Positions 47,538-50,890 of a stretch of 64,000 nt of DNA are shown here, piece after piece. A model generated the notes under the pieces. It saw only the letters and a program-made list of their open reading frames with translations, did not search any database and was not told the origin of the DNA. The translations under genes and the position numbers were made by a program. The stretch is from an uncultured Spirochaetaceae bacterium (lineage in GTDB: Bacteria; Spirochaetota; Spirochaetia; Sphaerochaetales; Sphaerochaetaceae): assembly GCA_944392965.1 (NCBI GenBank), contig CALXYM010000002.1, positions 186,001 through 250,000 on the forward strand, in the 5' to 3' direction. Every line of letters begins with the position of its first letter. The first letter of the stretch is position 1.

Positions 47538-47571
47538 AAAAAAAGGGCATGGTAAGATATACCACACCCTT
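47538..47571 (-). terminator. Terminator of metQ
   Basis: On the minus strand AAGGGTGTGGTA pairs with TACCATGCCCTT (one internal mismatch), followed by seven T residues. It lies 20 nt past the metQ stop. Confidence 0.92.
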
Positions 47572-48400: not shown

Positions 48401-48412
48401 CTTTCTCTCCTT

Positions 48413-48561
48413 ATGATGGATAATTAAAATTTAACAGGATGAAAATCCTTACATTAAGTTACGAAAATATAGATGTGCCTGATTTAGATATGAATATATT
48501 ATGCCCTGCCGGGCATCATCATGGAGAGCATGTGCATGTAGAATCTGTTGAAAAAAGTCAT
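48413..48561 (-). promoter_or_regulatory. Candidate methionine-responsive leader of metQ
   Basis: The mRNA segment CUCUCCAUGAUG inside the leader ORF (48517-48528) is complementary to CAUCAUAAGGAGAG at the metQ ribosome-binding site (48405-48418). The pairing gives 12 base pairs with a 2-nt AA bulge. It would hide the metQ Shine-Dalgarno. A ribosome stalled on the Met codons that overlap this segment would free it. A short TGCCC/GGGCA hairpin (48502-48515) covers the leader's last codons. No SAM or T-box riboswitch is seen. Confidence 0.55.
48499..48561 (-). CDS. Methionine-rich leader peptide upstream of metQ
   Basis: A 20-codon ORF, MTFFNRFYMHMLSMMMPGRA, with six methionines, three of them consecutive at residues 14-16. 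GAGGAAG precedes the ATG, and a promoter of good quality lies 33 nt upstream. The last codons form a hairpin. It ends 98 nt before metQ. The composition, position and complementarity to the metQ ribosome-binding site argue that it is a regulatory leader peptide sensing methionine supply. Translation has not been shown. Confidence 0.6.
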   Translation of the reverse strand: MTFFNRFYMHMLSMMMPGRA

Positions 48562-48593
48562 CTTCCTCACTCTCCTTACCTTTTGATGAGTCC

Positions 48594-48622
48594 AATATAT
48601 CCTAAAAAAATACATTGTTCAA
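48594..48622 (-). promoter_or_regulatory. Promoter of the metQ transcript
   Basis: Minus-strand TTGAAC (48617-48622) and TATATT (48594-48599) are 17 bp apart. The start near 48588 gives a leader of about 190 nt before metQ, including the short methionine-rich ORF. Confidence 0.75.
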
Positions 48623-49558: not shown

Positions 49559-50890
49559 ATGGATGGATCAGCATGCATCGAGAAGAATAGTGTCATCAAG
49601 GAGCATGGCAAAGAAACCCGCATCCGTCACGCTTCGATGCGTCCTGTTGTCATTGAAATGAAGCTTGACCTGAAATGCCTTAACAAGGCAGAACATGAAA
49701 AGCTCTGGCACTACTTCACCCAGTGCCGATGGCTGTGCAATTACCTCATTTCACTTTCAGGTGACGATTTCAAAATATTCAATACGAAAACAAGAGACAT
49801 CACATCCCTGGATAAGGAAGGCAATCCTGTTGAACGTCAGCTTACAATGCCTGCCAAGTTCATCCAGGCGGTATATTCATCCATCAAGCAGGATATGACA
49901 TCCCTTGCCGCAAAGCGTGAGAAGACAGGAAAGAAGAACGGTAAGCTGAAGTTCAGAAGCGAATACAATGCAATAGAACTTAATCAGTATGGGAACACCC
50001 ACTGGATCTGCTATGGCAATGATGGAAACAGGAATGGGAAGTACCGGAATACAGTTCACATCTCAGGTATCAAACGGCCCATAAGGGTGTTCGGAATGGA
50101 ACAGATTCCTCCAGATGCGGAATTCGCAAATGCAAAGCTTGTGAAGAGGCCGTCAGGGATATACCTGATGCTGACATGCTATATACCGGAAAGCAAAGGG
50201 AAATCAGAGTCAGAGGATAAACCGTCAATTGGTCTCGACTTCGGCATCAAGACGACAATAACGACCTCCGAAGGAGAGAAGATCGACATAACAGTCCGAG
50301 AACCGGAACGCCTCAAGGGCCTGCAGAAGAAGTTCGCCCGCCAGAAGAAGGGTTCCAGGGGCTGGTATGATACGAGACATCTCATCAGGAGAGAATATGA
50401 GAAGCTTGCCAATAAGAGGAGGGCAAAGGCCAATCAGGCATACCATGACATCACGAAAGGGAGAAAGCTTATCGTCATCCAGGATGAGAATATCAAGGGA
50501 TGGCATAAGGGACTGTTTGGAAGACAGGTGCAGAACAGCGCGCTCGGTACTCTGAAAGCGAAGCTCATTGCAAATCCCAATGTGCTTGTTGTCGACAGGT
50601 TCTTCCCTTCGACGAAGATGTGCCCCAGATGCGGGGACATCAATGAAGGCATCACGCTATCTGACAGGATATTCACCTGCGGGTGCGGATACAGTGAAGA
50701 TCGTGATGTGAAAAGTGCAAAAACACTGCTTCTTGCAGGAGAGCATGAAATGTCCTGCACGCTTGCGGGACGCAAGTGTCCTCCGGAGGAGCGGAAATCA
50801 GCCTTCTATACCTCGTATGAGATATGGGAGCATTCTGCGAGACGCCCTGAGAAGGGAAAGAGCCCGGAAGCTCCATCCTCTAAGCGTTAG
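49559..50890 (+). CDS. tnpB: TnpB, RNA-guided endonuclease of an IS200/IS605 element
   Basis: A 443-aa TnpB. The RuvC-like catalytic residues are present: D227 in GLDFG, E310 in VIQDEN, and the DRD at 381-383 in CGYSEDRDVKSAKTLLLA. A zinc ribbon is formed by C355, C358, C374 and C376. TnpB proteins use an RNA from the element's right end to cut target DNA next to a short motif and so help the element persist. The N-terminal 27 residues before MRPVVIEMKLDLKC may not be translated. The C-terminal 40 residues overlap the right-end RNA region, and the stop codon lies inside the right-end hairpin. It appears intact. Confidence 0.92.
   Translation: MDGSACIEKNSVIKEHGKETRIRHASMRPVVIEMKLDLKCLNKAEHEKLWHYFTQCRWLCNYLISLSGDDFKIFNTKTRDITSLDKEGNPVERQLTMPAKFIQAVYSSIKQDMTSLAAKREKTGKKNGKLKFRSEYNAIELNQYGNTHWICYGNDGNRNGKYRNTVHISGIKRPIRVFGMEQIPPDAEFANAKLVKRPSGIYLMLTCYIPESKGKSESEDKPSIGLDFGIKTTITTSEGEKIDITVREPERLKGLQKKFARQKKGSRGWYDTRHLIRREYEKLANKRRAKANQAYHDITKGRKLIVIQDENIKGWHKGLFGRQVQNSALGTLKAKLIANPNVLVVDRFFPSTKMCPRCGDINEGITLSDRIFTCGCGYSEDRDVKSAKTLLLAGEHEMSCTLAGRKCPPEERKSAFYTSYEIWEHSARRPEKGKSPEAPSSKR

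Follow-up and report, generated by a model that had tools for sequence, protein, structure and literature searches.

The methionine transporter gene metQ of an uncultured Spirochaetaceae bacterium is preceded by a short Met-rich ORF. We consider it rather likely that this ORF is a leader peptide gene for methionine sensing, with control codons on either side of an RNA strand that locks the ribosome binding site of the leader itself. Judging from sequence comparisons across one spirochaete family, a shortage of methionine would probably be perceived in these bacteria through ribosomes that stall at this leader. The gene lies in the stretch of 64 kb that was analyzed here, referred to below as the window.

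Organization of the metQ Leader Region

The leader ORF, the elements surrounding it and metQ are all encoded on the minus strand (Table 1). In an earlier note on this DNA, a promoter had been described upstream of metQ, together with an ORF of 20 codons, six of them Met and three of these consecutive, and no riboswitch had been seen. The ORF is present as described, and a search of the leader region against Rfam matched no riboswitch or any other family; at relaxed thresholds the only match was a snoRNA, which was taken as chance. Covariance models of the SAM riboswitch and T-box families did not match at the leader either. As for the promoter, a promoter-like site was found. Matches of this kind are no more frequent in the region than expected by chance (8 found versus 8.0 expected), but the element TATGCATAAT is conserved at the equivalent position in most of the window genus. 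Transcription from this site would start near 48587, placing the predicted 5' end about 25 nt before the leader ATG. An ORF of 15–30 codons with at least six Met codons and a Shine-Dalgarno (SD)-like site occurs once in the window, whereas a single shuffled version of the window contained none. Since a terminator-like hairpin follows metQ, this gene is probably expressed as a one-gene transcript.

Table 1. Features of the metQ leader region, in window coordinates.
Feature	Position	Strand	Evidence
Promoter-like site: -35 TTGAAC (48622-48617), 17 nt, -10 TATATT (48599-48594)	48594-48622	-	Consensus match
Leader SD GGAGAGUG, putative lock helix strand 1	48568-48575	-	SD energy -8.6; co-evolution with the lock strand in the family
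Leader ORF, peptide MTFFNRFYMHMLSMMMPGRA, 20 codons, six Met (codons 1, 9, 11, 14-16); ATG at 48561, TAA 48501-48499	48499-48561	-	Conserved in 80 parsed leaders
Putative lock strand UGCUCUCC (codons 12-13 plus the two bases before), lock helix strand 2	48523-48530	-	Pairing tests
Putative control codons (Met 9, 11, 14-16), flanking the lock strand	48514-48537	-	Met positions in 68 leaders
Hairpin 1, AUGCCC-GGCA-GGGCAU; final base is the first base of the stop codon	48501-48516	-	Stem almost invariant
G-poor, pyrimidine-rich spacer 3' of the leader	48462-48500	-	Base composition
Ribosome binding site of metQ, CAUCAUAAGGAGAG; in the window subclade it complements codons 12-15	48405-48418	-	
metQ, methionine ABC transporter substrate-binding lipoprotein, NlpA family, 269 aa	47591-48400	-	PF03180, 4.8e-93
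Terminator-like hairpin 3' of metQ	47543-47571 (47571-47543)	-	

Two further observations concern the surroundings of metQ. A stand-alone TnpB/OrfB-like protein (Cas12f1-like TNB domain, OrfB_IS605) is encoded nearby on the plus strand of the window (49559–50890). The metN and metI genes of the genome are located apart from metQ on another contig, after a cupin gene (contig C37, 1970–2914 and downstream; locus L221), and have no Met leader.

Conservation of the Leader and of Its Met Codons

Leaders were parsed from the regions upstream of metQ in relatives of the window genome. This rendered 80 leaders (68 after dropping near-identical ones) from a single family of spirochaetes, to which Bullifex, Ornithospirochaeta and related genera belong. 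In Bullifex porci, a cultured species, the leader occurs at L038/L116. The pattern ATGATGCCCNNNNGGGCAT was detected in 46 of the 48 genomes of the window genus, in nearly all of them just upstream of metQ, and in none when the pattern was reversed. Scanning 139 genomes of the order, in which one family is represented, gave matches in 71 genomes from at least six genera. In several genera of the family metQ is located directly after metI in a metNIQ operon and no leader was found. Outside the family, about 357 genomes were scanned, and the few matches were unlike the leader and at chance level. Extra matches in three genomes (G026, G019, and G029) were discarded as apparent chance matches, two sites in G026 having no leader and the others lacking the Met pattern. 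A single Atopobiaceae contig (L088) contains a Met-rich ORF, MTMAMYMYMPGSRAPRLVRVFAA, with GAGGAGG upstream, about 213–144 nt upstream of the metQ start; this is possibly a convergent leader in another phylum.

The parsed leaders have 17–28 codons, of which 4–9 are Met, and nearly all are preceded by a strong SD; most of them end in ...MMMPxRA or a close variant. AUG triplets inside the leaders are found 360 times in frame and only 9 times out of frame (7 in +1 and 2 in +2), and the counts outside the core and the hairpin are 122 in frame, 7 in +1, and 1 in +2. In the 68 leaders, when codons are numbered from the one at the base of hairpin 1, the Met codons cluster around the lock strand at about −8 to 0, mainly at −7 to −5 and −2 to 0, and there are almost none in the first half of the leader. 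The element upstream of metQ is thus a short ORF with an SD, rich in codons for the amino acid of the pathway, in which the Met codons are kept at a putative regulatory position and the rest diverges. Its family-wide conservation indicates that it is a conserved element and not a chance ORF, and agrees with the idea in the earlier note of a Met-rich leader able to sense charged tRNA-Met. By these features the leader would work like a ribosome-sensing leader peptide, with a predicted response to Met supply.

Predicted Pairing Between Lock Strand and Leader Shine-Dalgarno

Between the two Met clusters there is a pyrimidine strand, the lock strand, which varies among leaders (UCCUCC, CUCUCC, UCUUUCUUC, UACCUC, GUGCCUC, and others). 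Because of differing spacings, the SD was misaligned when 46 leaders were aligned with MAFFT. In place of a covariance model, pairing was therefore assessed by comparing the duplex energies of cognate and swapped partners. For the lock strand and the leader's own SD, cognate partners gave −14.97 kcal/mol versus −11.84 kcal/mol for swapped ones (68 leaders, sd 0.31; z = −10; 0 of 20,000 permutations). For the lock strand and the metQ SD of the same 68 leaders, the corresponding values were −9.65 and −9.86 kcal/mol (P = 0.82). Among 45 region pairs tested, lock strand and leader SD was the sole strongly co-evolving one, and with one sequence per type for 27 distinct types, new loci included, z was −6.5 for the leader SD and +0.7 for the metQ SD. 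Examples of lock strand and leader SD partners are AUAGGAGGUAUGCA/UGCAUGUCUUCUAU (L009), GAGGAAAGACAU/AUGUCUUUCUUC (L041), GAGAGACAU/AUGUCUCUC (L156), and GGAGGCAUGUCAU/AUGAUGUGCCUCU (L257). These results indicate that the conserved partner of the lock strand is the leader's own site.

Tested leader by leader, pairing with the own site reached p ≤ 0.05 in 76% of the 62 leaders outside the subclade of the window (defined below), and was weak in L053, L058, L038, L040, L144, L189, L200, and L205; in the window alone it was not above shuffles. Predicted accessibility of the leader SD increased from 0.10 in the free RNA to 0.29 with a simulated stalled ribosome (family mean). The lock strand would accordingly act as an anti-Shine-Dalgarno toward the SD of the leader itself and, in the window subclade, also toward that of metQ. 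That control codons flank an anti-Shine-Dalgarno strand, as the earlier note had it, is supported. A pairing between the U-rich spacer and the metQ SD, seen in folds of L011 and L041, was dropped since it showed no co-evolution (z = +2.8).

Pairing With metQ in the Subclade of the Window

The target given to that strand in the earlier note was the metQ SD: codons 12–15 would cover it, and a ribosome stalled at the Met codons would free it for translation of metQ. The complementarity is real. In the window, CUCUCC AUGAUG (48528–48517) can pair with CAUCAU-AA-GGAGAG (48418–48405) in a duplex of −16.1 kcal/mol, equalled in 16 of 2000 dinucleotide shuffles. The same metQ site, or a close one, characterizes a subclade formed by the window locus (L001) and L003–L007, in which CAUCAU is kept in five of six members and every member shows significant pairing with the leader (p 0.002–0.037). 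The level of 0.05 is reached in just 19% of the other 62 leaders, with low p values also in L023, L030, L146, and L176. Simulated stalling opened the metQ site in L001, L005, and L007, but neither in the other three members of the subclade nor in the family mean, which hardly changed (0.34 to 0.37). Moreover, across the family the metQ SD pairs less with its surroundings than swapped SDs do, and among related leaders the Met codons are kept but the complementarity to metQ is not. Together with the lack of family-wide co-evolution between lock strand and metQ SD, these data make translational attenuation of metQ an unlikely basis for the leader, and the translational model of the earlier note is, on this comparative evidence, not the family-wide design. 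A target SD sequestered by a conserved strand and freed on stalling, as in ermC-type attenuators, finds support only in the window subclade. Since the pairing is significant there, metQ translation could be attenuated in this subclade as a local addition; the six members are close relatives, so that the pairing represents one event or few, and it may be a lineage-specific acquisition.

Hairpin 1, the Spacer and Possible Routes to metQ

Directly after the lock/Met region there is a hairpin, AUGCCC-N4-GGGCAU (hairpin 1), whose GCCC/GGGC stem is almost invariant. In L041 and L181 the stop codon lies inside the loop and the stem is still kept, which argues that selection acts on the RNA rather than on the peptide tail. 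The 30 nt after the leader contain, as family means, 3–8% G, 13–27% C, and 37–49% U, with 49% U in the 10 nt that follow hairpin 1. The presence of a C-rich, G-poor unstructured stretch 3' of the leader and of Rho in the window genome makes Rho-dependent attenuation plausible as a predicted function, although the G-depletion may serve only to avoid pairing between spacer and lock strand. A second hairpin before metQ (GGUCCC/GGGACAU) recurs in part of the genus and was not retained as a candidate; local hairpins in the family barely beat shuffles (−4.5 versus −3.5).

Hairpin 1 itself could be a terminator in a ribosome-mediated transcription attenuation, in which a stalled ribosome would cover the 5' arm and RNA polymerase would pass. 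Its near invariance, even with a stop codon in the loop, and the U-richness downstream would fit, as would the 36 of 68 spacers that contain a site by a lenient terminator rule, mostly hairpin 1, versus 1.9 in shuffles. However, the stem has only six pairs, the first bases after it are the stop codon and not a U run, at least five T in the next 8 nt were found in only 7 of the 68 leaders, and ribosomes stalled at Met codons −7 to −5 would leave the hairpin uncovered. In about half of the leaders, hairpin 1 thus resembles an intrinsic terminator when the lenient rule is applied, although its U tract is displaced, and the 45 region pairs included no strongly co-evolving antiterminator pairing exclusive with a terminator arm. 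On balance we doubt that it acts in this way. RNA stability offers another route. In erm leaders stalled ribosomes protect the RNA 5' end, and by analogy stalled and queued ribosomes might protect that of the metQ transcript; the short distance between its predicted 5' end and the leader ATG would suit this, and opening of the lock would let ribosomes load, but we regard this explanation as improbable. Finally, the ORF might be incidental to an RNA structure that alone matters, such as an uncharacterised riboswitch or a protein-binding site. The greater conservation of hairpin 1 compared with the peptide tail it encodes points in that direction, but the strong excess of in-frame AUG, the SD kept in nearly all leaders and the scarcity of conserved structure besides the lock helix and hairpin 1 make it very hard to believe.

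Other Loci With the Leader and Methionine Genes of the Window Genome

The leader, with its own SD, is also located in front of a second metNIQ operon, which includes an M20 peptidase (L257). It is found as well upstream of a MetQ paralogue with swapped NlpA domain halves (L126, L207, L260, and L262) and of a dpp/opp-type oligopeptide transporter operon with SBP_bac_5 (L258 and L259; genomes G082 and G083), the latter suggesting uptake of Met-containing peptides. Most of these additional loci have a matching lock strand, which is short in L258. The occurrence of the same leader before other methionine or peptide uptake operons indicates that it marks a methionine-uptake regulon.

The swapped paralogue is apparently a circularly permuted substrate-binding protein: profile positions 99–236 are matched first, in residues 30–171. 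It is encoded at 752–1657 in L262 (minus-strand orientation) and at 1624–2526 in L126, and it adjoins an M20 peptidase gene in L126, L260, and L262, the sequence of L207 stopping before the next gene.

In the window genome (95% complete) neither MetE nor MetH was detectable, and this bacterium appears unable to make methionine. No SAM-I riboswitch was found in this genome, and the SAM riboswitches of sampled relatives are mostly at metK or other genes, not at metQ.

Discussion

The following mechanism can be proposed. With enough Met-tRNA, the first ribosome would run to the stop codon and leave, the lock helix and hairpin 1 would close, and the leader RNA would be ribosome-free. With little Met-tRNA, a ribosome would stall at a Met codon and the lock would stay open, since all Met codons lie within about one ribosome footprint, of the size generally accepted, of the lock strand; ribosomes would then keep loading. 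On a ribosome-free leader, transcription might end prematurely, either at hairpin 1 or through Rho acting at the G-poor pyrimidine tract, and a ribosome-loaded one might let RNA polymerase reach metQ; both steps are put forward with reserve. In the window subclade the lock strand could also cover the metQ SD, adding direct translational control. Rho, hairpin termination, RNA stability and translation are thus all candidate routes from the leader to metQ. Because a lock on its own site would limit translation of the leader on finished RNA, a decision during transcription fits better than classical translational attenuation, a preference that we offer as an argument and not as a result. That a ribosome sensor should use Met is surprising because every protein starts with it, and as Met starvation also limits initiation, a Met-codon sensor could be blunted.

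No methionine-codon leader peptide was described in the open literature searched, a coverage from which subscription papers are mostly absent. A survey from 2010 listed amino-acid leaders known only from Proteobacteria and Actinobacteria, and then added Firmicutes (PMC2965389). The closest comparison is with the Cys-codon leaders of actinobacterial cys operons, for which pyrimidine motifs between leader and operon were suggested as Rho sites; in the same study, the regions upstream of methionine operons showed no conserved RNA structure (PMC1262725). Both kinds of leader respond, or would respond, to a sulfur amino acid, have several control codons in succession close to the stop codon, and seem to lack an obvious intrinsic terminator. 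The spirochaete leader differs in using Met and not Cys, in belonging to another phylum, and in having a strongly co-evolving lock on its own SD and a near-invariant hairpin within the ORF. As in ermC-type attenuators and in the toiL uORF of Escherichia coli topAI, which has also been linked to Rho (PMC12121999), a stalled uORF ribosome would alter access to a ribosome binding site, but here the co-evolving site is that of the leader and not that of the target gene, and the proposed signal is amino acid supply and not antibiotics. SAM-I riboswitches (RF00162) and Met T-boxes also control methionine genes through upstream RNA, although neither matches at the spirochaete leader. With the classical attenuators (trp, his, leu, thr, and phe) the leader shares a short ORF, control codons cognate to the pathway, and pairing around these codons; it differs from them in the absence of a canonical terminator/antiterminator pair, in the amino acid, and in controlling uptake and not biosynthesis. 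Self-pairing of the trp leader was reportedly the subject of older work.

On present sequence evidence, the element makes a methionine-uptake regulon clearly recognizable in the sequences of gut spirochaetes. How this regulon is switched on we can propose only tentatively: starvation may keep the self-locked leader loaded with ribosomes, and this occupancy, rather than a switched target site or an intrinsic terminator, may be what turns it on. If such a self-locking design is true, a leader could control the gene downstream just by staying open to ribosomes.
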